Shown here: positions 48,277 to 64,000 of the stretch, piece by piece
Layout: each line of letters starts with the position of its first letter
Numbering within the stretch: position 1 is the first letter of the stretch
Source of the DNA: Belnapia moabensis DSM 16746
Lineage (GTDB): Bacteria > Pseudomonadota > Alphaproteobacteria > Acetobacterales > Acetobacteraceae
Assembly (NCBI RefSeq): GCF_000745835.1
Contig: NZ_JQKB01000011.1
Span: 62,001-126,000, forward strand
Direction of reading: 5' to 3'
DNA: 64,000 nucleotides
Position numbers and translations under genes: made by a program
Notes under the pieces: model-generated
Seen by the model: the letters and a program-made list of their open reading frames with translations, nothing else
Told to the model about the DNA's origin: nothing
The model's database searches: none

Positions 48277-48401
48277 CGGGCGCGCGAGCGAATATGTGAA
48301 TATTCAATCACGCCGCATCCCCCCTACCCTCCCCTGATCGAGAGCCCCGGCCAACGGGGCATACGGTGCAGAAGCGCCGGGACGTCCAGGGGGAGTAAGG
48401 C

Positions 48402-49361
48402 ATGAAGCGGCGCGATTTCCATCTGCTGGCGGGCGGCAGCCTGGCCTTCGGCCTGGTAGCCCCGGCGGTCCGGGCGCAGGCGAAGAAGAGCCTCGCCTTC
48501 GTCGTCAATGTCTCGGCCGATTTCTGGACCATCGCGCGGCGCGGCATCGAGAAGGCGAACCGCGAGCATCCCGATTTCGACATGGAGATGATCATCCCGA
48601 GCCAGGCGAGCGCCGCCGAGCAGCGCCGCATCCTGGACGAGCTGGTGGCGCGCAAGGTCGCGGGCGTCGCCATCTCCGCCATCAACCCGGCGAGCCAGAC
48701 CGACGTGCTGAACCGCGTCGCCGAGCAGTCCGTGCTCTTCACCACGGACAGCGACGCGCCGGCGAGCAAGCGGATGCTTTATATCGGCACGGACAACGTT
48801 GCCGCCGGGCGCCGCGCCGGCGAGCAGATGAAGCAGGCGATGCCGGAGGGCGGCCGCGCCATGCTGTTCGTCGGCACCATGGATGCCGACAATGCGCGCG
48901 AGCGCGTGCAGGGCATCCGTGAGATCTTACAAGGCGGCAACATCACCATCGCCGATATCCGCACCGACGAGAGCGACTTCGCCCGCGCCCGTCGCAACGC
49001 CGAGGATGCGCTGGCGCGCGAGCGCGACCTGAAGATGATGGTTGGCCTCTGGGCCTACAACACGCCGCAGATCTACCAGGCGGTGCGCGAGGCCGGGCGG
49101 CAGGGCCAGGTGAAGATCGTCGGCTTCGACGAGGATGCGCTGACCTTGCGCGGCGTGGCCGACGGCACCATCCACTCGACCGTGGTGCAGCAGCCCTACG
49201 AGTTCGGCTACCGCTCGATGAAGGGGCTGATCCGCGTGGTCAACGGCGACCGCGGCTGGATTCCGGCCAACAAGCAGGACATCGTCGAGACCAAGGTCAT
49301 CGACAAGACCAATGTGGGCGAGTTCCAGTCCTACATGCGGGGCCTGCTGCGGGGCAGCTAG
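48402..49361 (+). CDS. Sugar ABC transporter periplasmic binding protein (RbsB-like)
   Basis: 319 aa family-1 type binding protein. Begins with a twin-arginine-like signal (KRRDFHLLAGG, residues 2-12; cleavage near VRAQA), then SLAFVVNVSADFWTIARRGIEKA and ILDELVARKVAGVAISAINPASQTDVL, as in ribose/allose/galactofuranose receptors. GGGGGAGTAAGG precedes the ATG. First gene of a binding protein-ATPase-permease operon; the 125-bp upstream gap holds GTGAATATTCAATCAC, whose core GAATATTC is palindromic. Confidence 0.92.
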   Translation: MKRRDFHLLAGGSLAFGLVAPAVRAQAKKSLAFVVNVSADFWTIARRGIEKANREHPDFDMEMIIPSQASAAEQRRILDELVARKVAGVAISAINPASQTDVLNRVAEQSVLFTTDSDAPASKRMLYIGTDNVAAGRRAGEQMKQAMPEGGRAMLFVGTMDADNARERVQGIREILQGGNITIADIRTDESDFARARRNAEDALARERDLKMMVGLWAYNTPQIYQAVREAGRQGQVKIVGFDEDALTLRGVADGTIHSTVVQQPYEFGYRSMKGLIRVVNGDRGWIPANKQDIVETKVIDKTNVGEFQSYMRGLLRGS

Positions 49362-49362
49362 C

Positions 49363-50889
49363 GTGCTGCTCGAGCTGGAGGGGATCGGGAAGAGCTATCC
49401 CGGCATCCGCGCGCTGGACGGCGTCTCGCTGCATCTCGACGCCGGCGAGGTGCTCGGCCTTGTCGGCGAGAACGGCGCGGGCAAGAGCACGCTGATGAAG
49501 GTGCTCGGTGGGGTGGTGCAGCCGGATGCCGGGCGCATCCGCCTGCACGGGCGGGACTTCCCGCAGCTCAGCGTCGCCGAGGCGGGGGCGCAAGGCATCG
49601 CCTTCGTCCATCAGGAGCTGTCGGTCTTCGACAACCTCGATGTCGCGGCCAATGTGCTGATGGGGCGGGAGCCGGTCTGGGGCGGGCCGCTGCAGCTGGT
49701 CAACCGGCAGGCGGCGCGGGCCGCGGTGGCGCCGCTGCTGGCGCGGCTCGGCGCGGATTTCGGGCCGGAGGCGCCGGTCGCCACGCTCTCCATCGCGCAG
49801 CGGCAGATGGTCGAGATCGCCCGCGCGCTGTCCATGCGGGCGCGCATCATCATCTTCGACGAGCCGACCAGCAGCCTGACGCTGTCGGAGACGGACCGGC
49901 TGCTGGCGACCATCGCCGCGCTGCGCGAGGCAGGGACGGGCATCATCTATATCAGCCACCGCCTCGGCGAGATCACCACCTGCGCCGACCGCGTCACCTG
50001 CCTGCGCGACGGGCGGGTCGTCGGCCATCTGGCGCGCGGCGAGATCAACCATGCGACGATGACGCGGCTGATGATCGGGCGCGACCTGAAGTCGCTCTAC
50101 ACCCCGCCCGCTGCGATGCCGCGCGAGGATGGCGGGTTGCGCATCGAGGGGCTGGTAACAGAGGCCTTTCCCGACCGCAGCATCGACCTCGCGTTGCGGC
50201 CGGGGGAGATCCTGGGCCTCGCCGGGTTGGTCGGGGCGGGGCGGACTTCGCTGGCGCGGGCGCTCTTCGGCGTCGAGCCGGCGCTTGCGGGCCGGATCAG
50301 CCTTGGCGGCCAGGCGCTCAGCATCGGCAGCCCGCGCGAGGCGATCGCGCAGGGCATCTATCTCGTGCCGGAGGACCGCAAGCGCTCCGGCCTCGTGCTC
50401 GACATGTCGATCGCCGAGAATGTCTCGCTGCCGGATTTGCCGGACCATGCCCGCGCCGGGCTGGTACAGGGTGGCTCCGAGGCGCGGGCGGCCGAGGCGC
50501 AGCGGCAGTCGCTGCGCATCCGGGCGCCCGGCGTCGCGGTGAAGGCGGGCACGCTCTCGGGCGGCAACCAGCAGAAGGTGGTGCTCGGCAAGTGGCTGGC
50601 GATGCGACCGCGCGCGCTGATCTTCGACGAGCCGACGCGCGGCGTCGATGTCGGCGCCAAGGGCGAGATCTACGCGCTGATGCGCGGCCTCGCCGATCGC
50701 GGCGTCGCCGTATTGATGATCAGCAGCGACATGGAGGAGGTGATCGGCGTGAGCGACCGTGTCGCGGTGATGCATGAGGGCCGGATCGCCGGCACCCTCG
50801 AGCGCCATGAGGTGAACGAGCCGAACATCCTCCGCCTCGCCACCGGGCAGCGGCCGGAGGAACATGTGGCGACGGCGGAGGCGGTGTGA
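49363..50889 (+). CDS. Sugar ABC transporter ATPase with two ABC domains (RbsA-like)
   Basis: 508 aa. First ABC domain: Walker A GENGAGKST at residues 35-43, Walker B IIIFDEPTSSL. The second has the usual degenerate Walker A (GLVGAGRTSLARALFG) but a full LSGGNQQKVVLGKWL signature and LIFDEPTRGVDVG. GTG 49363 starts one base after the receptor stop; an upstream in-frame ATG lies inside the receptor gene and was rejected. Its stop overlaps the permease ATG (TGATG). Confidence 0.95.
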   Translation: MLLELEGIGKSYPGIRALDGVSLHLDAGEVLGLVGENGAGKSTLMKVLGGVVQPDAGRIRLHGRDFPQLSVAEAGAQGIAFVHQELSVFDNLDVAANVLMGREPVWGGPLQLVNRQAARAAVAPLLARLGADFGPEAPVATLSIAQRQMVEIARALSMRARIIIFDEPTSSLTLSETDRLLATIAALREAGTGIIYISHRLGEITTCADRVTCLRDGRVVGHLARGEINHATMTRLMIGRDLKSLYTPPAAMPREDGGLRIEGLVTEAFPDRSIDLALRPGEILGLAGLVGAGRTSLARALFGVEPALAGRISLGGQALSIGSPREAIAQGIYLVPEDRKRSGLVLDMSIAENVSLPDLPDHARAGLVQGGSEARAAEAQRQSLRIRAPGVAVKAGTLSGGNQQKVVLGKWLAMRPRALIFDEPTRGVDVGAKGEIYALMRGLADRGVAVLMISSDMEEVIGVSDRVAVMHEGRIAGTLERHEVNEPNILRLATGQRPEEHVATAEAV

Positions 50890-51875
50890 TGGGGCGGAAG
50901 GAGCTCGGCCTCGCGGTCCTCATCGTCGGCATCGCGGCCATTACGGCGGGGCTGAACCCGCAATTCCTCTCGACCGTCAACCTGATGAACATGGCCAACC
51001 TCATCGGCCTGTTCGGCATCTTCTCGATCGGCCAGGGGCTGATCATCATCACCGGCGGCATCGACCTCTCCGTCGGCTCGATCTTCGCACTGCTCGGCGT
51101 GGTCTTCCTCGACCTCACGGCGAATATGGGGATCGCCTGGCCCATTGCGGTGCTCGTCGTGCTGGCGCTCGGCCTGCTGATGGGGCTGGTCCATGGGCTG
51201 CTGGTGACAAGGCTCGGGCTGCAACCCTTCGTCGTGACGCTCTGCGGGCTGCTGATCTATCGCGGGGCGGCGCGCTACTACACCGGCGATTCCACCATCA
51301 GCCTCGGCTATGCAGAGGGGCTGGATGCCATCACCTGGCTGGCGGCAGGGCGCAGCTTCGGCGTGCCGCACAGCTTCTTCGCGCTGATCCTCGTCGCCAT
51401 CGTCGTGGGCGTGGTGCTGCATCGCTCGGTCTTCGGGCGATACCTCTTCGGCGTCGGGCGGAACGAGGAGGCGGCGCGCTATTCCGGCATCCGCACCGGG
51501 GCGGTGGTCACCGGCGCCTATGTGCTGGGCGGGCTGCTGGCGGCCTTCTCGACCATCCTGCTGGTCTTCTACACCAGCTCCGTCTCGCCCTCCTCCTTCG
51601 GCAATTTCTACGAGCTCTATGCCATCGCCGCCGCCGTGCTCGGCGGCTGCTCGCTGCGCGGCGGCGAGGGCAGCGTGCTCGGGATCGTGCTGGGGACGGT
51701 GCTGCTGCAGGTCCTGCAGAACCTGGTGAACATCCTTGGCATCCCCTCCTCGCTCAATTTCGCGGTGATGGGGGGCGTGATCCTGATCGGCGCGCTGGCC
51801 GACCGGCAGCTCGCGCGGCGCAAAACGGCGCCGGCGCGGGTGGCAGCGAAGGGGGCGGTGGCGGCGGCGGAGTAG
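50889..51875 (+). CDS. Sugar ABC transporter permease (RbsC-like)
   Basis: 328 aa, eight to ten membrane segments, BPD_transp_2 family. GLIIITGGIDLSVGSIFALLGV (residues ~52-73), GLQPFVVTLCGLLIYRGAARYYTGDSTISL and GIRTGAVVTGAYVLGGLLAAFS match RbsC. ATG 50889 overlaps the RbsA-type stop; GTG 50886 is equally possible. Last gene of the sugar uptake operon; a candidate terminator follows. Confidence 0.94.
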   Translation: MGRKELGLAVLIVGIAAITAGLNPQFLSTVNLMNMANLIGLFGIFSIGQGLIIITGGIDLSVGSIFALLGVVFLDLTANMGIAWPIAVLVVLALGLLMGLVHGLLVTRLGLQPFVVTLCGLLIYRGAARYYTGDSTISLGYAEGLDAITWLAAGRSFGVPHSFFALILVAIVVGVVLHRSVFGRYLFGVGRNEEAARYSGIRTGAVVTGAYVLGGLLAAFSTILLVFYTSSVSPSSFGNFYELYAIAAAVLGGCSLRGGEGSVLGIVLGTVLLQVLQNLVNILGIPSSLNFAVMGGVILIGALADRQLARRKTAPARVAAKGAVAAAE

Positions 51876-51878
51876 GCC

Positions 51879-51907
51879 GGGTCACCACGGCCCGGGCCTG
51901 ACCCTTT
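51879..51907 (+). terminator. Stem-loop with short T-run after the sugar ABC operon
   Basis: GGGTCA and TGACCC pair across a 14-base region that contains the self-complementary GGCCCGGGCC, followed by TTT. Starts 4 bases after the permease stop, between convergent genes. Confidence 0.45.
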
Positions 51908-51932
51908 GCGCCGGCTAGATTTGGGCCCCCAA

Positions 51933-52547
51933 TTAACGTCTCGGGGACGCCGGAACTGCAGCAAGCGGCTGATAGTCGGCTGGCCGTTGGAAACGGGCAG
52001 GGTCCTGCGGCCCGTAGGTGACGCGCGTAGCGACATACAGCGTCGATGCGTCCGAACCGCTTCCCTCGACAAGCCGCAACGGCACTCCGTCCGCGGTGAT
52101 GCAGGCATGCCGCGCCTCGTCCGCGCTGCCCCCATCCTTCGGTTCGATCCGCCAAACCGTGCAGGCTTGCCCGGCAACCGTATCGGTCCCTTCGCGCGTC
52201 AGCTTGGCATCGGGGCGGACCAGGACGATGTCCTGGGTCATCACGGCAGCCATCCTGCCAAGGTCATGGTAGGTGCGATCCGCGTCGACCAACACGACCA
52301 CTCCACCGCTGCGGGTGTCGATGATGTGGACCACGCGATTGATCAGGCTCCGGCCTTCCGTCCGAATCCGGCCTTCAGACGCGAGCCAAGCCACGGCGTC
52401 CACGGTAGGTGGCCTGTTCTTGACCTGATAGGCAACGGCGACGTCGCGCGTCGGCATCGCCGGAGGGCGCTCCTGCGCATGGGCGACGGAGACGGCGGAA
52501 GCGGCTAGGAGGCACGTCATAACGGCTTGCAAGGCGAATGGGCGCAC
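51933..52547 (-). CDS. Secreted hypothetical protein
   Basis: 204 aa, unrecognised. Signal peptide (CLLAASAVSVAHAQ, cleavage near residue 24) and a mature domain of about 180 residues rich in beta-strand-like stretches (VVHIIDTRSGGVVVLVDADRTYHDLGRM). Two cysteines (ACTVW, HACITADG) might form a disulfide. GTG 52547 has GGA about eight bases upstream; ATG 52520 is an alternative. Resembles DUF4412-like secreted proteins in layout only. Codon use is a little less GC-biased than its neighbours. Confidence 0.75.
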   Translation of the reverse strand: MRPFALQAVMTCLLAASAVSVAHAQERPPAMPTRDVAVAYQVKNRPPTVDAVAWLASEGRIRTEGRSLINRVVHIIDTRSGGVVVLVDADRTYHDLGRMAAVMTQDIVLVRPDAKLTREGTDTVAGQACTVWRIEPKDGGSADEARHACITADGVPLRLVEGSGSDASTLYVATRVTYGPQDPARFQRPADYQPLAAVPASPRR

Positions 52548-52755
52548 GATTTCCAATCCTTGGTGGCGCTCGATATTCCTTCGTGACGCCTGGGAGTCAA
52601 TTGGCGTCCTTCGGACTCGCCTGACCTGCATTCACCTGCCCCCCTGCGCGGGCCGGACATCTTGCAGGCTTCGCTTGCCCTGCCGCGAGGACAGGGCGGA
52701 GGCATCGGGGCGTTGGTGAGGCGGCGCGTGAGCCTCCCGGCAGGGCAGGACGGTC

Positions 52756-53922
52756 TCAGTAGCTCTTCGGCTGCTCCAGCACGCGCTCGGCGATGAAGGA
52801 GAGGATCATCTGCTCCGAGACGGGGGCGATGCGGCAGATCATCACCTCGCGCAGCAGGCGCTCGACGACGTACTCCTTCGCATAGCCCATGCCGCCATGG
52901 GTCAGCATGGCGCGGAGGCAGGCCTCGTAGCCGGCCCGGGCACCGAGCAGTTTCGCCGCATTGGCCTCGGCGCCGCAGGGGCGGCCGGCGTCGTAGAGCC
53001 AGGCGGCCTTCATCGCCATCATCCAGGCGCTCTCGAGCCCGGTCCAGCATTCGGCGAGCGGGTGCTGGATCGCCTGGTTCTGCCCGATGGGGCGGCCGAA
53101 GACCTGGCGCTCGCGCGCGTAGCGGCTGGCCCGGTCCAGCGCGTCGCGGCCGATGGCGATGGCCTCGGCGGCGATCAGGATGCGCTCCGGGTTCAGGCTG
53201 TCGAGGATGTAGGAGAAGCCGCGGCCTTCCTCGCCGATGCGGTCCTCCTCCGGGATGAAGAGGTCGTCGATGAAGACCATGTTCGAATCGACGGCGGCAC
53301 GGCCCATCTTCGGGATGCGCTGCACCTCGACGCGGCTGCGGTCGAGGTCGGTGTAGAAGAGGGTGATGCCCTCGGAGGGGCGCCGCGCCTCCTCCTTCCG
53401 CGTGGTGCGGGTCAGCAGCATGATCTTGTTGGCGACCTGGGCCGTCGAGGTCCAGATCTTCCGGCCGTTCACGCGGTAGCCGCCGGGCACCTTCTGGGCG
53501 AAGGTGGTGATGCTGGTGGTGTCGAGCCCGGCATTCGGCTCGGTGACGCCGAAGCAGGCCTGGTCGGTGCCGGCGACGAGGCGGGGAATCCAGCGCGCCT
53601 TCTGCTCCGCCGTGCCGTGGACGACGATCGGGTGCGGGCCGAACATGTTGATGTGGAGCGCCGAGGCGGCGCCCATCGCCCCGCCATGGCGGGCGACGGT
53701 GTGCATCATCAGCGCCGCTTCCGTCACGCCGAGGCCGGCGCCGCCATGCTCGGGCGGCATGGTGATGCCGAGCCAGCCGCCCTCGGCCATGGCGCGGTGG
53801 AACTCGCGGGGGAAGCGGGCCTCGGCCTCGCAGTCGCGCCAGTAGTCGTCGCCGAAACGGCGGCAGACGGCGCCGACGCCCTCGACGATCGCCTCCTGCT
53901 CGGGGGTGAGGCCGAAATCCAT
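52756..53922 (-). CDS. Acyl-CoA dehydrogenase
   Basis: 388 aa FAD enzyme introducing an alpha-beta double bond in acyl-CoA. MDFGLTPEQEAIVEGVGAVCRRF at the start, ACFGVTEPNAGLDTTSITTFAQ (flavin contact), RKIWTSTAQVAN, and C-terminal LTHGGMGYAKEYVVERLLREVMICRIAPVSEQM. GGAGG lies six bases upstream of ATG 53922; a longer in-frame start (54033) lacks family residues. Divergent from the VLCFA lipid A operon, perhaps by chance or as a fatty-acid-linked neighbour. Chain-length preference unknown. Confidence 0.94.
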   Translation of the reverse strand: MDFGLTPEQEAIVEGVGAVCRRFGDDYWRDCEAEARFPREFHRAMAEGGWLGITMPPEHGGAGLGVTEAALMMHTVARHGGAMGAASALHINMFGPHPIVVHGTAEQKARWIPRLVAGTDQACFGVTEPNAGLDTTSITTFAQKVPGGYRVNGRKIWTSTAQVANKIMLLTRTTRKEEARRPSEGITLFYTDLDRSRVEVQRIPKMGRAAVDSNMVFIDDLFIPEEDRIGEEGRGFSYILDSLNPERILIAAEAIAIGRDALDRASRYARERQVFGRPIGQNQAIQHPLAECWTGLESAWMMAMKAAWLYDAGRPCGAEANAAKLLGARAGYEACLRAMLTHGGMGYAKEYVVERLLREVMICRIAPVSEQMILSFIAERVLEQPKSY

Positions 53923-54002
53923 GGTGATCCTCCCGCGGTTGCGGCGAGGATCGGCCGGCGCGGGCGCCAGGGCAAGCTCGCACCCTGCAAGCTCCCGCCC
54001 TG

Positions 54003-54014
54003 TTGGCTTGCCAA
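54003..54014. promoter_or_regulatory. Palindrome upstream of acpXL
   Basis: TTGGC-TT-GCCAA, a perfect 5-bp inverted repeat in the 145-bp divergent gap between the acyl-CoA dehydrogenase and acpXL genes, 54 bases before the acpXL ATG. A possible operator; the regulator is unknown. Confidence 0.3.
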
Positions 54015-54067
54015 GGGCGGCGGTTCGGGCCAAGACCCCCTAACAGCCACTGCCCCCGGAGACAGCC

Positions 54068-54352
54068 ATGGCCTCGGCGTTCGACCGCATCGCCGACATC
54101 ATCGCGGAGACCAGCGATGTCCCGCGCGAGACGATCCGGCCGGAAAGCCATGTGATCGAGGATCTCGGTATCGACAGCCTCGACTTCCTCGACATCGTCT
54201 TCGCCATCGACAAGGCCTTCGGCATCAAGGTGCCGGTCGAGACCTGGACGCAGGAGGTCAACTCGGGCGCGGCCCCGGCCTCGCAGTATTTCGTCATGGA
54301 GAACCTGGCGAAGCGGATCGAGGAGCTGGTGGCCGCCAAGTCCGGCGGCTAG
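54068..54352 (+). CDS. acpXL: Acyl carrier protein AcpXL for very-long-chain lipid A acyl groups
   Basis: 94 aa, longer than housekeeping AcpP (~78). The phosphopantetheine serine is S37 in [23 protein letters not shown]; the DIIAETS start and the [25 protein letters not shown] insert are typical of rhizobial AcpXL. It carries the growing C26-C28 chain for LpxXL. GGAG lies eight bases upstream of the ATG. First of six tightly packed genes in the order acpXL-fabZ-fabF2-fabF1-adh-lpxXL. Confidence 0.93.
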
Positions 54353-54356
54353 CGCC

Positions 54357-54809
54357 GTGCAGCTCGAATATTTCCGGATGATCGACCGGGTTGTCTCGGT
54401 CGATGACGGGTCCATCGCCGCGGAGGCGGTGGTGCCGGAGGCGAGCCCAGTCCTCGAGGGGCATTTCCCCGGCCATCCGCTGGTGCCCGGCGTGCTGCTG
54501 CTGGAGACCATGGCGCAGGCCTCGGGCTACCTGCTGCTGGCGCGGCTCGGCTTCTCCCGCATGGCCTTCCTCATCGGCAACAAGGAGCTGAAGCTGCGGC
54601 GCTTCGTCCGGCCAGGGGAGCGGCTCTCCGTGACCGCTCGGCTGGTGCATGAGGGCTCGGGCTATGCAGTCACGGATGCGGCCATCACCGGCGAGGGCAA
54701 GCGTATCTGCGAGGTGCGCGAGATGAAGTTCAGCCTGGCCGATTTCCCGGCGCCGGAGCTGGCCGCGGCGATGCGGGCGCAGGCCGAGCGGATCGGGCTC
54801 GCGCCATGA
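54357..54809 (+). CDS. 3-hydroxyacyl-ACP dehydratase, FabZ-like (VLCFA cluster)
   Basis: 150 aa hot-dog-fold dehydratase. Catalytic motif GHFPGHPLVPGVLLLE at residues 35-50, with H36 and E50 as the expected pair. Starts with GTG 54357, five bases after acpXL, giving MQLEYFRMIDRV as in the XL-type FabZ proteins; its stop overlaps the next ATG (ATGA). Acts on AcpXL-bound 3-hydroxyacyl chains during VLCFA elongation, by analogy to rhizobial fabZXL. Confidence 0.92.
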   Translation: MQLEYFRMIDRVVSVDDGSIAAEAVVPEASPVLEGHFPGHPLVPGVLLLETMAQASGYLLLARLGFSRMAFLIGNKELKLRRFVRPGERLSVTARLVHEGSGYAVTDAAITGEGKRICEVREMKFSLADFPAPELAAAMRAQAERIGLAP

Positions 54810-55933
54810 GCGGGGCGGTCTGGATCACCGGGATCGGCCTCGCCTCCTCGCTCGGCGAGGGGGTGGAGGCGCATCGGGCGGCGCTGCGGGACCCGGTGGC
54901 GCGGCCGGTGGTGGATGCGGCGGGCTTCGCCCCCTTCCCTGTCCATCCGATGCCCAATCTCGCCTTCGATGCGCAGATCCCGAAGAAGGGTGACCAGCGG
55001 CAAATGGAGCCCTGGCAGCGGCTCGGCACCTATGCCGCGGGCCTCGCGCTCGACCATGCGGGGGCGCGGGGACTGGTGGGGGAGATGCACCTGCTCGTCG
55101 CCGCTGGCGGCGGGGAGCGGGACGTGGGGCTCGACGAGGCGATCTGCGCCGAGCTTGCCGGGCTGCCGCCGGAGCAGGCGGGGCCGCTGCTCAACGAGCG
55201 CCTGGCCAACGGGCTAAGGCCGACACTGTTCCTGGCGCAGCTCTCCAACCTGCTGGCGGGCAACATCTCCATCGTGCATGGCGTCACCGGCTCATCGCGG
55301 ACCTTCATGGGCGAGGAGGCGGCGGGGGCGGAGGCGGTGCGCATCGCGGCCGCCAGGCTCGCCGAGGGACGCGGCGAGGTGGCGCTGGTCGGCGGCGCCT
55401 ATGTGGCGGGGCGGTGGGACATGCTGCTGCTGCATGCGGCCTCGGGCGGGCTGTGGCGCGGCGACTGGGCGCCGCTCGCCGAGCGGCGGGGTGGCGGGAT
55501 GGTGACGGGGAGCATCGGCGCCTTCCTGGTGCTGGAGACGGAGCGGCATGCGCGGGGGCGCGGCGCGGCCTGCCTTGCGCGGCTGGCGGCGGTCAGGAGC
55601 GGCGCGGCGCGGCGCCAGGGCGAGGACAGCGCGCGGGCGAGTGCGGCGGCGCTGGCCGAGGGGCTGGCGCTGCGGCCGGGGCTTGCAGTGGTGTCGGGCG
55701 CGAGCGGGATGCCGGAGGCGCTGGCGGAGGAGCGGGCTTTCCTCGCCGGCCTGCCGGAGCCGGGGGCGGTGCGCTTCACCGCGGACCTGCTGGGGCATGG
55801 CGTGGAGGCGAGTTTTCCGGCGAGCCTGGCGCTCGGGGCGCTTGCCCTTGCTGAGGGCATGGCGACGCAGGCGCTTGTGACGGGGTTCGGGCTCTGGCGC
55901 GGCGAGGCGCTGGCCTTGCTGGAGGCGGCGTGA
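54806..55933 (+). CDS. Ketosynthase-like protein without catalytic Cys (FabF2-type, VLCFA cluster)
   Basis: 375 aa thiolase-fold protein. Where FabF has TACATG with the nucleophile Cys, this has VTGSSRTFMGEE; no HGTGT motif is present, and only a remnant LLGHGVEASFP of the last GH motif remains. So it is unlikely to condense chains alone. It sits between fabZ and a fully catalytic FabF and overlaps both, as does fabF2XL in rhizobia, which suggests a heterodimer like type II polyketide KS-alpha/chain-length-factor pairs. That partnership is inference. Confidence 0.9.
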   Translation: MSGAVWITGIGLASSLGEGVEAHRAALRDPVARPVVDAAGFAPFPVHPMPNLAFDAQIPKKGDQRQMEPWQRLGTYAAGLALDHAGARGLVGEMHLLVAAGGGERDVGLDEAICAELAGLPPEQAGPLLNERLANGLRPTLFLAQLSNLLAGNISIVHGVTGSSRTFMGEEAAGAEAVRIAAARLAEGRGEVALVGGAYVAGRWDMLLLHAASGGLWRGDWAPLAERRGGGMVTGSIGAFLVLETERHARGRGAACLARLAAVRSGAARRQGEDSARASAAALAEGLALRPGLAVVSGASGMPEALAEERAFLAGLPEPGAVRFTADLLGHGVEASFPASLALGALALAEGMATQALVTGFGLWRGEALALLEAA

Positions 55934-57168
55934 TGCGGGACCATCTCGGGCGGCCGCTCGTCGCGGTGACGGGGATGGGGCTGGTGACGCCGCTGGGCTT
56001 CGGCGTGGCGGAGAGTTGGCGGGCCCTGCTCGCCGGGCGGTCGGGCATCCGGCGCATCACCCGCTTCCCGACCGAGCATCTGAAGACGCGGATCGCCGGG
56101 CAGGTGACGCTGCCGGGAGAGGAAGCGATGGCCTCGCCGGAGCGGGTGGAGCGGATGGCCGCAATGGCGGCGGCGGAGGCGGTGGGGCAGGCCGGGATCG
56201 GCGAGCGGTTCCCCGGGCCGCTGCTTCTCGGCATGCCGCCGGTCGAGGTGGAATGGCCGCAGCGGCTGGCGCTGGCGCGGGCGGGTGCCGGTTATCCGGC
56301 GATGGTCGAGGCGGTGGCGGGGCAGCGGGGGCTGTTCGAGACCTTCCTCTTCGGCGGGATCGGGGAGCGGCTGGCGGAGCGGTTCGGGACGCACGGCGTG
56401 CCGGTTTCCGTCACCACGGCCTGCGCGACGGGGGCCTCCGCGATCCAGCTCGGGCTGGAGGCGATCCAGCGCGGCGAGGCGAAGGCGGCGCTCTGCATCG
56501 GCGCCGAGGGGAGCGTGGCGCCGGAGCCGCTGGTGCGCTTCTCGCTGCTCTCGGCGCTGTCGACACGCAATGACGAGCCGGAGCGGGCCTCGCGGCCCTT
56601 CGAGAAGACGCGCGAGGGCTTCGTGCTCAGCGAGGGCGCGGCGGCACTGGTGCTGGAGAGCCTGGAGGCGGCGCAGGCGCGTGGGGCGGAGGTGCTGGGG
56701 CTGGTGCTCGGGGCCGGGGAACGAGCCGACAGCTTCCACCGCACGCGGAGCAACCCGGATGGCGGGGCGATCATCGGGGCGATGCGCGCGGCTATCGCCG
56801 ATGCGGGGCTGCGGCCGGGCGACATTTCCTATGTGAACGCGCACGGCACGGGAACGCCGGAGAACGACAAGATGGAGACGCTCGGCATGCGCGCGGTCTT
56901 CGGCGATGCGCCGCCGCCGATCTCGTCGAACAAGTCGATGATCGGGCACACGCTCTCGGCGGCGGGAGCGATCGAAGCGGTGGCGAGCCTGCTCACCATC
57001 CGCGACGGAATGCTGCCGCCGACGATCAACCATGAGGTGCCCGATCCGGCGATCGCGCTCGATGTGGTGCCGAATGTCGCGCGGGCGGCGAAGGTGGAGC
57101 GGGTGCTGTCGAACAGCTTCGGCTTCGGCGGGCAGAATGTGTGCCTGGTGCTGGGGGCGGCGCCGTGA
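55933..57168 (+). CDS. 3-oxoacyl-ACP synthase, catalytic (FabF1-type, VLCFA cluster)
   Basis: 411 aa. Full catalytic triad: C164 in VTTACATGAS, H304 in NAHGTGT and H339 in SMIGHTLSAAGA. Condenses malonyl-ACP with acyl-AcpXL to lengthen the chain. ATG 55933 overlaps the previous stop (TGATG), so it is made together with the FabF2-type protein. A 67-bp gap follows before adh, containing two copies of a GCGCCGGAGG(T/C)GC sequence, the second acting as ribosome site. Confidence 0.94.
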   Translation: MRDHLGRPLVAVTGMGLVTPLGFGVAESWRALLAGRSGIRRITRFPTEHLKTRIAGQVTLPGEEAMASPERVERMAAMAAAEAVGQAGIGERFPGPLLLGMPPVEVEWPQRLALARAGAGYPAMVEAVAGQRGLFETFLFGGIGERLAERFGTHGVPVSVTTACATGASAIQLGLEAIQRGEAKAALCIGAEGSVAPEPLVRFSLLSALSTRNDEPERASRPFEKTREGFVLSEGAAALVLESLEAAQARGAEVLGLVLGAGERADSFHRTRSNPDGGAIIGAMRAAIADAGLRPGDISYVNAHGTGTPENDKMETLGMRAVFGDAPPPISSNKSMIGHTLSAAGAIEAVASLLTIRDGMLPPTINHEVPDPAIALDVVPNVARAAKVERVLSNSFGFGGQNVCLVLGAAP

Positions 57169-57235
57169 GCGGCGCGATGCTCGGAGCGCCGGAGGTGCGG
57201 AAAGCTAAATCGCGCCGCGCGCCGGAGGCGCAGCA

Positions 57236-58258
57236 ATGAAAGCGTTGCAGCTTTTCGGTGATCGCGACACGCGGCTCGTCGAGGTGGCGGAGCCGGCGGC
57301 GCCGGGGCCGGGCGAGTTGCGGCTCAGGATGCGGGCGGTGGCGCTCAACCACATCGATGTCTGGGGCTGGCGGGGGATGGCTTTCGCCAAGCGGAACCTG
57401 CCGCTGACGGTGGGGGCGGAGGCGGTGGGCGAGGTTGTCGCCATCGGCGAGGGCGTGGAGGGGTGGCGCGTCGGGCAGCTCGCCGTGCCTTATGGGGCGC
57501 AAACTTGCGGCGTCTGCCGGGCGTGCCGGGAGGGGCGGGACAATCTGTGCGAGAATGTCGCGGGGGTGAAGGGATTCCACCTCGATGGCTTCGCGCAGGA
57601 GATCGTCAATCAACAGGCGCGGCTTTGCGTGAAGGTGCCGGAAGGCATCGCCGTGGAGGATGCGGCCTGCGCGGGGATCACCTTCTCGACCGTGGAGCAC
57701 ATGCTCTTCGACAATGCGCGGCTGGAGCCGGGCGAGACGATCCTGGTGCAGGCGGCGGGTTCGGGGATCGGCACAGTCGCCGTGCGCATGGCGAAGGCGA
57801 TGGGGTGCACCGTCATCGCGACCGCCGGGTCGGACGAGAAGTGCGAGCGGGTGCGCGCGCTCGGGGCGGATCATGTCGTCAACTATACGAATGACCGCTT
57901 CGAGAGCGTTGCGCGGAAGGTGACGAAGAAGCGCGGCGTCGATGTGGTGTTCGAGCATGTAGGCGCCACGACCTGGGCGGGGTCGCTGCTGTCGCTCAGG
58001 ATGGGTGGCAGGCTGGTGACTTGCGGCAGCACCTCGGGTGTCTCGGCGGAGACCAACCTGATGATGCTGTTCCAGCGGCAGCTGCGCATCATCGGCAGCT
58101 TCGGTGCGGCGATGCGCAACATCGGCGACGGGCTTGGCAAGATGGCGGGCGGCCTCCGGCCGGTGATCGACAGCACGGTGCCGCTGGAGGGCTTCGCCGG
58201 GGCGCTGGCGCGGCTCGAGGAGCGGCGGGTCTTCGGCAAGATCGTCGTCATGCTCTGA
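57236..58258 (+). CDS. Zinc-binding dehydrogenase, Adh2XL-type (VLCFA cluster)
   Basis: 340 aa MDR-family oxidoreductase. Catalytic-domain core LNHIDVWGWRGM, a structural zinc site with cysteines in QTCGVCRACREGRDNLC, and the cofactor loop VQAAGSGIGTVAVRMAKAMGC (about 170-190). Most likely performs the enoyl- or keto-reduction step in VLCFA synthesis, by analogy to adh2XL in rhizobial clusters; the exact step is not shown. GGAGG sits seven bases before the ATG; lpxXL starts 2 bp after its stop. Confidence 0.91.
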   Translation: MKALQLFGDRDTRLVEVAEPAAPGPGELRLRMRAVALNHIDVWGWRGMAFAKRNLPLTVGAEAVGEVVAIGEGVEGWRVGQLAVPYGAQTCGVCRACREGRDNLCENVAGVKGFHLDGFAQEIVNQQARLCVKVPEGIAVEDAACAGITFSTVEHMLFDNARLEPGETILVQAAGSGIGTVAVRMAKAMGCTVIATAGSDEKCERVRALGADHVVNYTNDRFESVARKVTKKRGVDVVFEHVGATTWAGSLLSLRMGGRLVTCGSTSGVSAETNLMMLFQRQLRIIGSFGAAMRNIGDGLGKMAGGLRPVIDSTVPLEGFAGALARLEERRVFGKIVVML

Positions 58259-58260
58259 CC

Positions 58261-59136
58261 ATGCGCGATGCGGCGGTGGCGGCGCTGGTGCGGGGGCTCT
58301 TCGCGCTCGTCGGGGCGCTGGGGCCGGATCGCGCGGGGGCGCTGGGCGGTGCCGTCGCGCGGCGGGTCGGGCCGTTGGTGAAGGCGCATCGGATTGCGCT
58401 CGAGAATGTGGCGGCGGCGTTTCCCGAACTGTCGGAGGCGGAGCATCGACGGATCGTCGGGGAGGCCTGGGAGAATCTCGGGCGGACGGCGGCGGAATAC
58501 GTGCATCTGGAGCGGATCTGGGATTTCGACCCCGATGGCGCGCCGGGGCGGATCGAGGTCGCGCCGGAGGCGGTCGCGCGGTTCGAGGCGCTGCGCGAGG
58601 ATGGCAAGCCGGCGCTGTTCTTCGCGGCGCATCTGGCGAATTGGGAGCTGCCGGCGGTCGCGGCGGCAAAGCATGGGCTGCCCTCCGCCGTGCTCTACCG
58701 GACGCCGAACAACAAGGCCGTCGCGGCGGATATCCGTGCGCTGCGCGAGGGGATCATGGGGCGGCTGATCGCGGCGGATGTCGCGGCGCCGGTCCGCATG
58801 ATGGAGGCGCTCGACGAGGGGCTGCATGTCGGCATGCTGATCGACCAGCGCTTCGGGCGGGGGCCGCGGGTGCCCTTCCTCGGGCGGCCCGCGGCAGCCA
58901 ATCCGTTGCTGGCGCGGCTGGCGCGGCGCTTCGACTGCCCGGTGCATGGGGCGCGGGCGATAAGGCTGCCGGGGGGCCGGTTCCGGCTGGAGCTGACCGA
59001 GGCGGTGGAGCTGCCGCGGGATGCGCGGGGACGAGTGGATGTGGAAGCGGCGACGGCGCTGCTCAACCGGATCGTCGAAGGCTGGGTCAGGGAGCATCCG
59101 GGGCAGTGGCTGTGGATGCACAGGCGGTGGCGGTAG
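58261..59136 (+). CDS. lpxXL: Lipid A VLCFA acyltransferase, LpxXL-type
   Basis: 291 aa LpxL/HtrB-family acyltransferase. Motif HX4E as HLANWE (about residue 124), LYRTPNNKAV, GMLIDQRFGRGPRVPFLGRPA and the ending WLWMHRRWR. In Rhizobiales LpxXL moves the C28 acyl chain from AcpXL to lipid A; gene order argues for the same role here. ATG 58261 begins 2 bp after adh. It is distinct from the LpxL-type gene at 32888, so the genome has two late acyltransferases in this window alone. Confidence 0.92.
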   Translation: MRDAAVAALVRGLFALVGALGPDRAGALGGAVARRVGPLVKAHRIALENVAAAFPELSEAEHRRIVGEAWENLGRTAAEYVHLERIWDFDPDGAPGRIEVAPEAVARFEALREDGKPALFFAAHLANWELPAVAAAKHGLPSAVLYRTPNNKAVAADIRALREGIMGRLIAADVAAPVRMMEALDEGLHVGMLIDQRFGRGPRVPFLGRPAAANPLLARLARRFDCPVHGARAIRLPGGRFRLELTEAVELPRDARGRVDVEAATALLNRIVEGWVREHPGQWLWMHRRWR

Positions 59137-59295
59137 AAGTTGAGGAATTGAAGAGGGGGCGGGTCAAAGCGTTGAGACTGGCGGATTTTCGGGCGAATTT
59201 TAGGAATTCAGGGTTTTAAGGACTGCCTGCGAACAACCGTAGACCGGGTTGCCCTGCCGCCTCGGATGCGAGGCCGGCCTCCGGCGCGTGCAGCC

Positions 59296-60030
59296 TCAGC
59301 GCCAGTAGGCCCCCTTGGTGCCCGGCGGCGGCCCGATCAGGCGATCATAGGCGCGACGTTCGATGCCGTAGCACTCGCAGGAAGCCGCTTCGAGGCCCGG
59401 CCGGTCGGTGATCGTAATCCGGCCCCGTTCGTAGCGGATAAAGCCCGCCTTCTGCAGCACCCCCGCGGCAACGGTAACCCCGGCGCGGCGCACGCCGAGC
59501 ATCATCGACATAAACTCGTGCGTCATGGGGAAGTCGTCAGTCCCCACGCGGTCATGCGCCATCAGCAGCCAGCGCGCGAGGCGCTGTTCGATATGGTGCC
59601 GACCGTTGCAGGCCGCGCTCCGCGTCACCTGCTCGAAATGCGCCAGCGCGTAGCGGCTCAGGGTCGGGCGGAGCGATGGGATGCGCTCCAGCTCCTCCCG
59701 GAACGCGGCAGTGCCGATCCGCAGCCCGGTGCCAGGCACCTGGACCATGATCTCGAAACCCTCGATGTCGGCGCCGAGCAGCGGCGCCAGCCCCATCATC
59801 CCTTCCGGGCCTATGAGGCCGACCTCGGCACTGTCGCCGTTGTCCATGTAGGCCAGCCGGGAGAGATAGCCTGTCCCCGGGAAGTAGACCGCCCGGATCG
59901 GCTGCTCCACTTCCTGCAGGATCTGACGCAGCGAGAGCTCGACAAGTTCGAGCCGCGGCAGGAAGCGCGCGAGGTCGTCGGGCGGCAAGGCCGCGAGCAG
60001 GCGGTTGCGGGGTGCGGGCTGATCGGTCAT
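59296..60030 (-). CDS. Crp/Fnr-family transcriptional regulator
   Basis: 244 aa. N-terminal cyclic-nucleotide-binding-like beta barrel (residues ~20-130; AVYFPGTGYLSRLAYMDNGDSAEVGLIGPEGMMGLAPLLG) and a C-terminal winged helix (MTHEFMSMMLGVRRAGVTVAAGVLQKAGFIRYERGRITI). The Fe-S cysteines of FNR are absent; a CEC pair lies near the C-terminus. Signal unknown. ATG 60030 starts MTDQPAPRN; an upstream in-frame extension is less family-like. Its promoter must lie in the 291-bp gap 60031-60321, which is visibly less GC-rich. Confidence 0.88.
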   Translation of the reverse strand: MTDQPAPRNRLLAALPPDDLARFLPRLELVELSLRQILQEVEQPIRAVYFPGTGYLSRLAYMDNGDSAEVGLIGPEGMMGLAPLLGADIEGFEIMVQVPGTGLRIGTAAFREELERIPSLRPTLSRYALAHFEQVTRSAACNGRHHIEQRLARWLLMAHDRVGTDDFPMTHEFMSMMLGVRRAGVTVAAGVLQKAGFIRYERGRITITDRPGLEAASCECYGIERRAYDRLIGPPPGTKGAYWR

Positions 60031-60321
60031 GGCCACGCATGGCTCCTGCGACAGAATGTCGGCGGGAGCACGGTCGCGTCTCACAGTCGCCTGCGCCGAA
60101 AGGATCGCGGCAGGCGATGCGTGGTTATAGAATCCGCAACGGAGGTTGTCGGGGCGAAACCGTACAGGACTGGAAAGTTCTTTCAAAATTCCAGCAAGTA
60201 TGCTCCGGGTTGTACCCGTCCGTGCGGATGCATCATATTGCTCCGCTGCCGTTCAAAGACTGTTTCTTCGGTGGCGTCCGGGAACGGATGGGCCGCAGGC
60301 CTCGCAGGCTGTCGGGTCGGG

Positions 60322-60462
60322 TCAGACTTCCTCATCGATGCGGTTCTGTTCGATCGCCTCGAGAGGGGTCAGGCCAGCGTCGAAATACTTCCGCCATAGC
60401 TCCGCATCGATGTCGAAGGTCACAACGGCCTCGATTTCGGCGATCCAGGTGTCGAAGTCCAT
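60322..60462 (-). CDS. Small acidic hypothetical protein
   Basis: 46 aa (MDFDTWIAEIEAVVTFDIDAELWRKYFDAGLTPLEAIEQNRIDEEV in parts), strongly acidic with aromatic and aliphatic spacing suggesting two or three short helices. GGAG lies eight bases upstream of ATG 60462. In-frame codons continue upstream to 60600, so a longer form cannot be excluded. No family recognised; it may be a small regulatory or antitoxin-like protein, but no partner is identifiable. Confidence 0.55.
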   Translation of the reverse strand: MDFDTWIAEIEAVVTFDIDAELWRKYFDAGLTPLEAIEQNRIDEEV

Positions 60463-60720
60463 GTGCCTGCTCCGGTGCTGCACCACGTGGTTGCCAGGGC
60501 CGCCTGACCGGATCGCCGACATTGGGGGGGTCCCGAAGGTCCGCGATGGGTCGAGGCTGTAGGAGAACACGGCCTCCGTCGATAGTGGTTCCTCCGGCAC
60601 GGTTATGGGGCTGGCACCCCGGGCGCCGGACGGAACCAGCCCTCGCCTGCCCTTCCGCGGCTCGGCCGAGGCCGGCGGCGCGAGGCGCCGGGCGCCTGCA
60701 CCGCCATAGCCAGCCTTCGG

Positions 60721-61374
60721 TCAGGCTACGGCCTCGTGCTCGGCTGCCACCGCTGCCGGCAGGAGGCCATAGGTCGAGACCCAGTCCCAGTCCCTCGCCG
60801 TCCAGGCGATCGGCGTCATGTTCGGCCCCAGGAAGACCTGCGGCCAGGTATTCTTCACGTTCTGGTCCCAGCCCGGCTTCATGGCGAAGAGCGAGTAGCA
60901 CCAGGCCAGGATGACGATCCGGTTCTCGCTCAGGTGCCGCCTGATCTCCGTCGTCAGCTTCCCGACCGTGTCGAAGGACCCATCGCCCACATCCTGCACC
61001 ACGACATGGATGCCAGGCAGCGCCTGGCTGCCGTTCAGCTGCCGGGCGATGGTCCGGTCATCCTCCGGGTTGATCGCGGTGTCGGCCGGCCTGTTCGGGT
61101 TACGGGGATGGATTCGGCCCGTTCTCGTGTCCACCTCCTGGCCGAGCTGGTCGCCATGGCGCCCTGCCAGCACCGTGAAGGTCTGCTGCCCCTTGCCGTA
61201 CAGGTCGCGGACGATCTCCCGCCAGGACCCGTCGCCGGTGAAGGTCACCGAGACGCAGAGATTGCCCTTGATCACCCAGGGGCAGTCGTCGAAGGACCAG
61301 TCGCCGCTGTTGAGCTTGTCCCAGACATTCTTCGGTGAAAGGGGACTGGTAGGCTTGATGTATTTGGCGGCCAT
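60721..61374 (-). CDS. Hypothetical protein of unknown family
   Basis: 217 aa, no recognised domain. No signal peptide or membrane span. Aromatic-rich (WDKLNSGDWSFDDCPWVIKG; WTARDWDWVSTYG), with two cysteines near residues 31 and 40 and a third in ILAWCYSLF. The central GRHGDQLG and the DTAINPEDDRTIARQL segments look like a functional core. CAGGAG is placed correctly for ATG 61374; an earlier ATG (61392) is less likely. Lies between small unknown genes in a less GC-biased accessory-looking patch. Confidence 0.75.
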   Translation of the reverse strand: MAAKYIKPTSPLSPKNVWDKLNSGDWSFDDCPWVIKGNLCVSVTFTGDGSWREIVRDLYGKGQQTFTVLAGRHGDQLGQEVDTRTGRIHPRNPNRPADTAINPEDDRTIARQLNGSQALPGIHVVVQDVGDGSFDTVGKLTTEIRRHLSENRIVILAWCYSLFAMKPGWDQNVKNTWPQVFLGPNMTPIAWTARDWDWVSTYGLLPAAVAAEHEAVA

Positions 61375-61488
61375 CGTCGCCTGCTCCTGCATTCGATACT
61401 TCAAAAAACGATGCGGAGCCAGCGGGAGCGAGGCAAGCTAAAAGGCGTTAACCTTGTAACAAGCCGCCAAATCTTAAAACGGCGATGC

Positions 61489-61716
61489 TCAGGGCTGGTT
61501 GGCGGCGGGAGCGGTGACCCAGCCTTGGAAGGGCGGCTCGCCGCAGTCGCCGCACCAGAGCTCGCGGTTCAGGCCGATCAGGTGGAGACGCGCATCGCGG
61601 CCGACCAGGGCGATCAGCCGGGCGCGGCTATAGGTGTGGGACCGGCAGCCGCAGCGGAGGCAGAGCGCCTCGTCGCGCGCCAGGTCGTTGACCGTGAGGG
61701 CGAAGGCAGGGTCCAT
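61489..61716 (-). CDS. Small Cys-rich (zinc-ribbon-like) protein
   Basis: 75 aa. Five cysteines in two groups, C-x2-C-x-C (LCLRCGCRSH) and C-x2-C (LWCGDCGEP), about 32 residues apart: the layout of a structural zinc ribbon. No family named. ATG 61716 chosen (MDPAFALTV); no good ribosome site is visible and an ATG at 61755 would add 13 residues. Confidence 0.6.
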   Translation of the reverse strand: MDPAFALTVNDLARDEALCLRCGCRSHTYSRARLIALVGRDARLHLIGLNRELWCGDCGEPPFQGWVTAPAANQP

Positions 61717-61787
61717 GATGAGGACAAAGATAGAACATCGCCGCCGGTTCCGCAAGCGCTTTCTATCGGTTCCGCATCATTCACCGG

Positions 61788-62186
61788 TCACGTCGTGGTG
61801 GCGGTGCAGCCAGGGCCGTTGCGGTTGAAGCTGGTGATGCGGCCCTCGCGGGATTCGAAGACGAGGACGCAGCCCTCGACGCCGCCGCCATAGCCGCCGA
61901 GGCCGAGACCGAGGCCGGTGCCAACCCCCACGCCGCCGCCGAAGCTGCCGAAGCCGAGGCCGATGCTCGGGAAGATGGCGGGGCGGCTGGAGGGGCGGGC
62001 GAACTCGTACTGCAGCAGGCGGCGGCCCTCATTCTCATAAGTGCGGTTGGGGACGCCGAGATTGGCGACGACATCCGCTTCCGGGCGGCCGACATAGGTG
62101 CCGATGCGGCGGTCGAATTCCGCCGTGGTGCCGGAGGAGCCGCAGGCGGCGAGCAGCAGCGGCAGCAGGAGGAGAAGGCGGTGCAT
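61788..62186 (-). CDS. Small lipoprotein with Gly-rich segment
   Basis: 132 aa. Lipobox LLAAC at residues 11-15 after MHRLLLLLPLL, predicting an acylated envelope protein. TTAEFDRRIGTYVGRPEADVVANLGVPNRTYENEGRRLLQYEF resembles small outer-membrane-assembly-like (SmpA/BamE-type) folds at low confidence, followed by a glycine-rich repeat (GFGSFGGGVGVGTGLGLGLGG) and a C-terminal strand with two cysteines. Function unknown. Confidence 0.8.
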   Translation of the reverse strand: MHRLLLLLPLLLAACGSSGTTAEFDRRIGTYVGRPEADVVANLGVPNRTYENEGRRLLQYEFARPSSRPAIFPSIGLGFGSFGGGVGVGTGLGLGLGGYGGGVEGCVLVFESREGRITSFNRNGPGCTATTT

Positions 62187-62262
62187 CGGTCGGGGCCCCG
62201 TCCGCGGGTGGCGGGATTGCCGGCGCGGCAACTGATAACGTTCGGCGGCCGGGCTGGATGCA

Positions 62263-63162
62263 TCAGGCGGTGAGATGGGCGCTGCGGCCGGCATTCACAT
62301 CGAGGGTGGTGCCGGAGACGTAGAGGGCGCCGGGGCCGCAGAGGAAGGCGATGGCGTCGGCGATCTGGTCGGGCGGCAGCACGGGGATGGGGAGCGCATG
62401 GCCGGCGAAGGCGGCGGCGCGGCGCGGGTCCGGCTGCGGGGCGCCGCCGCCGCGATGCACCATGGGCGTCTCCACCGCCGTGGGGGCGACGGCGTTGACG
62501 GTGATCTCCTCCGGGCCGAGTTCGGCGGCGAGGGACTTCATCAACCCGGTCAGGCCCCATTTCGTCGCGGCATAGGCGCCGGAGTCGCGGACGCCCATCC
62601 GCGCCTGGACGGAGGTGACGATGACGATGCGCCCTCCCCTGCCCTTCCGGCGCATGCCCGGCAGCATCGCCTGGATGGTGTTGAGGGTGCCGGTGAGGTT
62701 GACGTCGAGCATCGCCTGCCAGGCCTCCGGGGCGGGCTCGGCGAGGGAGCCGTTGATGGCGATGCCGGCATTGGCGACGAGGATGTCGGGGCCGCCGAGT
62801 TCGGCGTCGAGGCGGGTGGCGGCGGCGCGGAGGGCGGCGGCGTCACGGATATCGGCGACGAGCGGGAGGGTGCGGACCTGCTGCTCGGCGGTGAGGCGGA
62901 CGGCCTCGTCGAGCTCGGCGCGGGTGGCGAGGCGGTAGCCGCGCAGCGCCGGGATGGCCCCTGGCTCGGCGATGTCGAGCAGGGCGACATCGGCGCCGAG
63001 GCGGGCGAGGGCGAGCGCGGTGGCGCGGCCGATGCCGCGGGCGGCGCCGGTGACCAGCGCCGTGCGGCCGGCGAGCGGACGGGCAGGCTGGGCCTCGGCC
63101 GTGGTCGTGGCGAGGGCCAGGGTCGTGGCGGCGGCGGCGAAGAGCTGGCGGCGTTCGGTCAT
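62263..63162 (-). CDS. SDR-family oxidoreductase with Tat-like signal sequence
   Basis: 299 aa. TERRQLFAAAATTLALATTTAEAQ looks like a twin-arginine signal peptide (R4-R5, cleavage near residue 25). The SDR core follows: TGAARGIGRAT (about 38), NAGIAING, catalytic VTSVQA serine, YAATKWG (Y-x3-K) and the ending LDVNAG. A 20-residue insertion after beta-2 (RGYRLATRAELDEAVRLTAEQ) recalls mycofactocin-coupled SDRs, which bind NAD tightly. GGAGG is well placed for ATG 63162. Periplasmic location is inferred. Confidence 0.88.
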   Translation of the reverse strand: MTERRQLFAAAATTLALATTTAEAQPARPLAGRTALVTGAARGIGRATALALARLGADVALLDIAEPGAIPALRGYRLATRAELDEAVRLTAEQQVRTLPLVADIRDAAALRAAATRLDAELGGPDILVANAGIAINGSLAEPAPEAWQAMLDVNLTGTLNTIQAMLPGMRRKGRGGRIVIVTSVQARMGVRDSGAYAATKWGLTGLMKSLAAELGPEEITVNAVAPTAVETPMVHRGGGAPQPDPRRAAAFAGHALPIPVLPPDQIADAIAFLCGPGALYVSGTTLDVNAGRSAHLTA

Positions 63163-63376
63163 GGGCATCCTCCGATGGGGCAACGCGGTGGGGCGCGGGA
63201 TGCTCCATGGAAGGAGGCTTGATGGTGCCCGGGGAGTTCACCGACCCGCTGGCGCGGAGGATGGCGCCGGGCCTCGGGCAGGCTCCGACCGGGTGCCACC
63301 ACCCGATCGGAGGTATCCGCTCCATCGGACAACGGCTCGGAGCGGGGTCCTTGAGCCGGTGCGGACGGAAGCCGCT

Positions 63377-64000
63377 CTAGCCGCGGTCCGGCGCGTTGAG
63401 CTGGCGCGGGGCGCCGAGCTGCTTCTGGCGGAGCGCGGAGAGCCGGTCCGACAGGGTGTTCGGCAGGGCGGGACGGCCGGAGGCGGCGGCCATGGCGGCG
63501 GCGATGTTCGGGTCGTCCTGTTCCGGGCGGCTCGGCTGCAGCAGCTTGGCCTTCGAGTTGGCGGCCTCGGCGGCGGCCAGGTTGCGCGCGGCGTTGTCCT
63601 GCATCGCCTTCAGCGCGACGGAGAGGCCGCTGGTGGCGCTGGAAAGGCCGGCGGCCTGGCGGGCGGCCTCGGCGCGGCGCTCGGCGACCTCGCGCTGCTG
63701 CTCGGCGCGGCCCATGTCGCGCTGGGCGCGGTTCAGCGCGTCGCGGGCGCCCTTCAGCTTCTGGCCGGCCTGGGCGTAGGTGTCCTCGAGCATGTGGAGG
63801 AACTGGGCGGCGTCGGCGGCATCCTGCCGCTCGCGGTCGATGTCGGGGGCCATCTGCTCGAGCATGCCGACCAGGGTGGCGAGGCTGCGCTCCAGCTCGG
63901 CCTTGCGGGTGGGGTCGGCCTCGGCCTGCATGCGCTGCTGGAGCTGCTCGGCGGCGGCCATGCGCTGCTGCGAGAGCTGGCTGATGGCATCGGCCTCGCG
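63377..64000 (-). CDS. Coiled-coil hypothetical protein (5' end beyond window)
   Basis: At least 207 residues; the frame stays open to the right edge, so the start is missing (M at 63961 is internal to READAISQLSQQR...). Heptad-rich Ala/Glu/Arg/Gln sequence (LERSLATLVGMLEQM; AQRDMGRAEQQREVAERRAEAARQ) predicts a long coiled coil, then a Pro/Asn/Arg-rich tail. No catalytic motif. Family not recognised. Confidence 0.72.
   Translation of the reverse strand, partial: READAISQLSQQRMAAAEQLQQRMQAEADPTRKAELERSLATLVGMLEQMAPDIDRERQDAADAAQFLHMLEDTYAQAGQKLKGARDALNRAQRDMGRAEQQREVAERRAEAARQAAGLSSATSGLSVALKAMQDNAARNLAAAEAANSKAKLLQPSRPEQDDPNIAAAMAAASGRPALPNTLSDRLSALRQKQLGAPRQLNAPDRG

Follow-up and report, generated by a model that had tools for sequence, protein, structure and literature searches.

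A 64,000-nucleotide stretch of contig NZ_JQKB01000011.1, hereafter the window, carries at 54068-59136 six tightly packed open reading frames (ORFs), all on the plus strand, that correspond to the genes making very-long-chain fatty acids (VLCFAs) for lipid A in rhizobia. They are acpXL for a specialised acyl carrier protein (ACP) (94 aa; 54068..54352); fabZ (fabZXL) for a 3-hydroxyacyl-ACP dehydratase (150 aa; 54357..54809, GTG start); fabF2 (fabF2XL) for a ketosynthase-fold protein lacking the catalytic Cys (375 aa; 54806..55933); fabF1 (fabF1XL) for a beta-ketoacyl-ACP synthase with an intact active site (412 aa; 55930..57168, GTG start); adh (adhXL) for a medium-chain dehydrogenase/reductase (340 aa; 57236..58258); and lpxXL for a lipid A secondary acyltransferase for the very long chain (291 aa; 58261..59136). 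From acpXL to lpxXL the junctions are a 4-bp gap, a 4-bp overlap, another 4-bp overlap (fabF2/fabF1), a 67-bp gap and a 2-bp gap. The lpxXL start is taken at ATG 58261; the ORF list has an upstream TTG at 58021. A preliminary description of the window had recognised six VLCFA-type genes in Sinorhizobium/Rhizobium order, and the six ORFs bear this out. In a scan of at least 592 stretches from at least 588 named relatives, with gene order scored in the best 80, 55 of these loci had all six genes arranged and oriented as in the window, which excludes chance. The locus is a real, complete and ordinary instance of a known cluster, though apparently one little described.

Family calls were made with NCBIfam equivalogs at their curated cut-offs and with Pfam. 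AcpXL scored 157 bits against the equivalog NF005079 (cut-off 83) and matched the solved 'specialized acyl carrier protein' structure 2kw2 (E 2.7e-42); its LGIDSLDF motif is presumably the phosphopantetheine site. FabF2 and FabF1 each exceeded a ketosynthase equivalog, NF005084 (451 versus a cut-off of 320 bits) and NF005076 (631 bits), respectively. LpxXL passed the acyltransferase equivalog NF005120 (406 versus 273 bits), matched Pfam Lip_A_acyltrans at 142 bits and carries an H124-x4-E129 motif that is invariant in 18 of 18 sequences. FabZ has a FabA-like domain over the Pfam cut-off (69.8 bits), with the FabZ models below their equivalog cut-off, and is assigned to the VLCFA set by its place in the cluster as well; Adh is a clear member of the medium-chain dehydrogenase superfamily (Pfam ADH_zinc_N/ADH_N) that passed no equivalog cut-off. 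A second LpxL-type acyltransferase, a separate paralogue, is encoded elsewhere in the window (32897-33691, minus strand; Pfam PF03279, 148 bits), and a third, partial LpxL-type match lies on contig C37 of the same genome.

The most useful new observation is that the active site of FabF2 is lost in every sequence examined. FabF1 retains the Cys-His-Lys-His set (C165, H305, K335 and H340) in all 115 aligned rows. For FabF2, none of 118 rows has Cys, the first His or Lys at the catalytic positions (two rows have gaps there for His and Lys), and 106 rows retain the last His. The region of the Cys is replaced by the motif SSRTFMGEE, which takes the form R[TS]xxGxE in 123 of 124 rows; the exception, L077, has Cys in place of Arg and keeps GEE. 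Any Cys within the 22 residues around the motif was found in just two of the 124 rows, that of L077 being at the Arg position and not the nucleophile. The second Glu of the motif, E171, is invariant in 46 of 46 sequences and is set on Cys163 of Escherichia coli FabF by hidden Markov model alignment. Another alignment and a FabF1-based one likewise placed Glu at the nucleophile position, and a FabF2-based one placed Met or Leu there; Cys was never found. In the AlphaFold model of FabF2 (predicted local distance difference test score 90) a helix begins at residue 171. Most likely, the invariant E171 takes the place of the nucleophile in FabF2.

A residue pattern also marks the protein encoded by adh. 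All 93 aligned rows have Asn at the position that we take to be the catalytic-zinc Cys and Ala or Val for the corresponding His, and all 93 keep the four Cys presumably binding the structural zinc. Among the relatives of this protein are alcohol dehydrogenases and also reductases acting on acryloyl-CoA, crotonyl-CoA and quinones. 'Adh' is thus a probable trans-2-enoyl-ACP reductase, which would supply the natural missing step of an elongation cycle. At least 12 loci (L075-L077, L079, L080, L086, L117, L123, L130, L137, L140 and L166) have a further ORF between fabF1 and adh, a seven-gene form in which the inserted ORF, assigned by eye, is FabG-like; the cluster can therefore hold a whole elongation cycle. 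The inserted ORF had also been considered as a missing hydroxylase, an idea we rejected since the coding ORF appears by eye to be a FabG-like short-chain dehydrogenase.

We conclude with good confidence that the six genes form a dedicated type II module for fatty-acid elongation, with its own lipid A acyltransferase. This reading builds directly on observed gene content, gene order, family membership, residue patterns and an identical occurrence of FabF2 and LpxXL across 250 genomes of the order. In the proposed scheme, AcpXL would carry the growing acyl chain and FabF1 would condense the AcpXL-bound chain with malonyl-ACP. FabF2, unable to form the usual acyl-enzyme, would pair with FabF1 as a subunit resembling a chain-length factor, taking the chain beyond ordinary length. 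The ketone would be reduced by a presumed housekeeping FabG, FabZ would dehydrate the product and 'Adh' would act as the enoyl reductase. LpxXL would then transfer the completed very long chain from AcpXL onto lipid A, where it would form a secondary acyl group. Mutant work in rhizobia is in keeping with such roles: mutants in lpxXL, fabF2XL and adhlA2XL lose or alter their VLCFA (PMC5613085, PMC11901934), and mutation of acpXL blocks C28 acylation (cited in PMC9045160).

How closely the product would follow the rhizobial one is a separate matter. The preliminary description went from the genes to a C26-C28 (omega-1)-hydroxy chain, and here it went too far, for the six genes include no recognisable hydroxylase and do not fix, or indicate, an exact chain length or (omega-1)-hydroxylation. 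We regard as evenly balanced the possibility of a cluster operating exactly as it does in Sinorhizobium, with 27-hydroxyoctacosanoate (or 25-hydroxy-C26) as its product on lipid A. The genes and their order are the same, and almost all rhizobia are reported to bear very long hydroxylated chains, 26 to 34 carbons in length, on their lipid A (PMC7663294). Set against this are the lack of a hydroxylase among the six genes, a word absent, too, from the main text of PMC5613085 and PMC11901934, and the variation of chain length between rhizobia described in PMC5613085 and PMC7663294. Within the same order, the lipid A of Granulibacter is penta-acylated, and the text of the paper describing it lacks the words 'very long' (PMC8036547). 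The genome under study has a squalene-hopene cyclase, so a hopanoid-lipid A as in Bradyrhizobium can be imagined, as pure speculation.

The loss of the FabF2 active site bears on how the chain would be lengthened. In Foldseek searches the FabF2 model matched structures of beta-ketoacyl-ACP synthase II (KAS II) and of ketosynthase/chain-length-factor (KS/CLF) proteins with similar scores, and C163Q FabF structures were among the matches. In Agrobacterium fabrum, fabF2XL is reported to be needed for VLCFA synthesis (PMC11901934). A protein that has lost its active site and yet is needed would be explained on both counts by a catalytically silent partner of FabF1, and we read FabF1 and FabF2 as a putative KS/CLF-like unit. 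A narrow literature search found no paper describing FabF2 as a silent partner of FabF1. In its general form, towards which we lean slightly, the proposal is that in all alphaproteobacteria with VLCFA-bearing lipid A, FabF2XL is a catalytically silent, Glu-bearing chain-length factor paired with FabF1XL, a KS/CLF machine serving a membrane lipid instead of a polyketide, and that it occurs in at least two separately placed Acetobacterales lineages.

FabF2 might instead prime synthesis as a malonyl-ACP decarboxylase and have no part in setting length, its invariant Glu acting as does the Gln that KSQ and CLF proteins carry at the nucleophile position. A carboxylate side chain aligned at the Cys163 position of FabF and the C163Q structures among the model's matches would suit this role. 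The first His and Lys, which aid decarboxylation in ketosynthases, are however absent, even if the last His is usually kept, and we consider a decarboxylase unlikely. Less probable still are two independent ketosynthases with different chain-length ranges: the literature does annotate both proteins as 3-oxoacyl-ACP synthases (PMC11901934) and the FabF2 model resembles KAS II, but not one FabF2 row, gapped rows included, offers the nucleophile, the first His or the Lys that such an enzyme would use.

Several facts weigh against an elongation module with FabF2 as the silent partner. FabF1 clears its equivalog cut-off by 2 bits only (631 versus 629), and the FabF2 sequence resembles KAS II more than it does the known chain-length factors. 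Nor is adh universal: 11 of the 80 best named loci, of which nine carry the title Bradyrhizobium and two Nitrobacter, lack it at its place, so Adh would be dispensable or replaced there. The routine whole-cell fatty-acid method is not aimed at C26-C28 chains. By whole-cell analysis, nothing above C19 is listed for five Belnapia strains (PMC8489839, Table 2). The literature yielded no lipid A chemistry of any Belnapia.

The host had been suspected of belonging to the Acetobacteraceae/Rhodospirillales rather than the Rhizobiales, and this proved right. The draft assembly (6.7 Mb; completeness 98.95%, contamination 4.24%) contains no small-subunit (16S) rRNA gene that we could find, and the host was placed by protein identity, by its collinearity with Belnapia and by the kinship codes that the genome search gave. 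Window FabF2 shares 94% identity with its counterpart in Belnapia sp. F-4-1 and 82% with the one in Belnapia rosea. Collinearity with Belnapia sp. F-4-1 spans window positions 46963-64000 and comprises five blocks, of which four have 89-93% identity and one short block (302 columns) has 78%. On these grounds the host, a soil bacterium, is placed as a Belnapia relative in the Roseomonadaceae, Acetobacterales (the taxonomy used here; PMC10715153), near Belnapia and outside the Rhizobiales (Hyphomicrobiales), inside which no marker put it.

In the flanking DNA, a segment of about 1 kb at 59219-60266, with a Crp-like regulator (59296-60186, minus strand), has no counterpart in the Belnapia sp. F-4-1 record, which is collinear elsewhere. 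A divergent acyl-CoA dehydrogenase gene (52756-54033, minus strand) lies just upstream of acpXL. Of 43 loci searched, the two Belnapia records have such a gene near the cluster; in the remaining 41, some of which end near the cluster, it was not found. A PADLOC scan of three downstream ORFs gave no match.

The distribution of the genes was followed in 250 Acetobacterales genomes, the window's included, all coded to the window's own family by kinship. LpxXL passed the NF005120 cut-off in 72 of them, and FabF2 had a match at E <= 1e-60 in just as many, with 67 of them passing its cut-off; with split clusters counted, the two sets of 72 are identical. Part of the Acetobacterales therefore has the cluster as a normal trait, and it is no isolated oddity there. 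More widely, FabF2 passed its cut-off in 18 of 385 genomes of the class, across 12 families, and was found (E <= 1e-40) in 28 of 299 genomes of the phylum, every one in the window's own class.

Gene order varied on a common theme. Among the 55 six-gene loci, fabF1 and adh are more than 500 bp apart in 13. Besides these and the loci without adh, six of the best 80 have the first four genes only, two have a divergent adh-lpxXL pair and six have fewer genes (L105, L112, L125, L141, L142 and L151), with contig ends close by. In two genera (g9 and g37) the cluster is split, acpXL-fabZ-fabF2-fabF1 and adh-lpxXL standing at separate places (L034 and L037-L039 with L174-L176 and L178-L180; L177), and about 16 kb separates the two parts in genome G220. 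That the loci with adh-lpxXL only had lost the genes for synthesis (L034, L037, L038, L039 and L042) was considered and rejected, since FabF2 is present elsewhere in those genomes; acpXL-fabZ-fabF2-fabF1 lie together at a second site in G018, G105 and others, and for G216 the ground is the FabF2 match. In several other alphaproteobacterial families (L080, L081, L083, L084 and L090) lpxXL lies upstream of acpXL and not at the end, and its product is 33-53% identical to window LpxXL. Three metagenome bins titled Asaia bogorensis (L105, L123 and L124) encode FabF2 proteins 64%, 55% and 54% identical to that of the window; they look like different organisms, and their titles are doubtful.

Trees were built for AcpXL+FabZ+FabF2+FabF1 (104 rows with FastTree; 47 and 46 rows under LG+C20) and for adh+lpxXL (41 rows). 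All were unrooted and took only rows with every gene in question, the 47-, 46- and 41-row sets being hand-picked. In all four trees the copies from the Hyphomicrobiales stood apart from the window copy, which fell with those of Roseomonadaceae such as Belnapia, Siccirubricoccus and Roseicella, and in the four-gene trees it grouped with Belnapia inside the Roseomonadaceae clade. Two loci (L128 and L145) were in or out of the window's clade depending on the four-gene run (47 versus 46 rows). The Rhodopila-type Acetobacteraceae formed another clade in the four-gene trees, with Phreatobacter and other Hyphomicrobiales; among its members are G062, G176 and G220, three genomes that share the window's family code. 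Forcing the 23 Acetobacterales rows of the four-gene set into one clade cost 168.6 log-likelihood units (approximately unbiased (AU) test, p 1.3e-120), and a single Acetobacterales clade was also rejected for adh+lpxXL (AU p 0.00026); a common clade of the sampled Acetobacterales copies was accordingly discarded. In the adh+lpxXL tree the Rhodopila-type clade stood apart from the Roseomonadaceae clade and beside, not inside, the Hyphomicrobiales. A Hyphomicrobiales source of the Rhodopila-type clade is therefore backed by one half of the cluster only. We conclude that the sampled Acetobacterales copies have at least two histories, the unrooted trees setting no direction of transfer. A recent transfer of the window cluster from the Rhizobiales, where the cluster is best known, is very improbable given its Roseomonadaceae grouping apart from the Hyphomicrobiales, as far as sampled, and the collinearity of the surrounding DNA with Belnapia sp. 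F-4-1.

That the trait is little described in this group, as had been supposed, agrees with the literature. We found no paper joining acpXL or lpxXL with the Acetobacteraceae in the open-access literature, which leaves most subscription journals outside, none joining these genes with Roseomonas, Belnapia or Rhodopila among the open-access matches listed, and none on 27-hydroxyoctacosanoic acid with the Acetobacteraceae in the open-access literature. Beyond the Rhizobiales, PMC9045160 reports acpXL by annotation for 23 of 24 species of Brevundimonas, and PMC7663294 tabulates weak homologues for Caulobacter. The distribution shows that the Roseomonadaceae and some other Acetobacterales have the gene set for very-long-chain lipid A as a standing trait. 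It is no speciality of rhizobia, and its role is therefore unlikely to be symbiosis or intracellular life only. The identical occurrence of FabF2 and LpxXL in one order makes a clean contrast of presence and absence with which missing genes, an (omega-1)-hydroxylase for example, could be sought. That FabF2 has lost its active site offers a testable explanation of why C26-C30 chains need two ketosynthase genes.

Among known systems, the acpXL-lpxXL (acpXL-msbB) cluster of A. fabrum and other Rhizobiaceae has the same six genes, order, direction and curated families (for A. fabrum, PMC11901934). Here, by contrast, the host is one of the Acetobacterales, the proteins form a separate clade and the product is a prediction. 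The VLCFA clusters of Bradyrhizobium and Nitrobacter share acpXL, fabZ, fabF2, fabF1 and lpxXL in order but are of a five-gene form without adh (also described in PMC5613085), which the window has. KS/CLF pairs such as those of actinorhodin (1TQY), ishigamide (6KXD/6KXF) and AntDE (6SMO/6SMP), whose chains the FabF2 model matches, are likewise adjacent pairs of ketosynthase fold with one active site intact and one not. They differ from FabF1/FabF2 in a polyketide rather than a fatty-acid setting, in CLF chains from which FabF2 is more distant in sequence than from KAS II, and in the Gln of the chain-length factors, where FabF2 has Glu at the nucleophile position in most alignments and never Gln.

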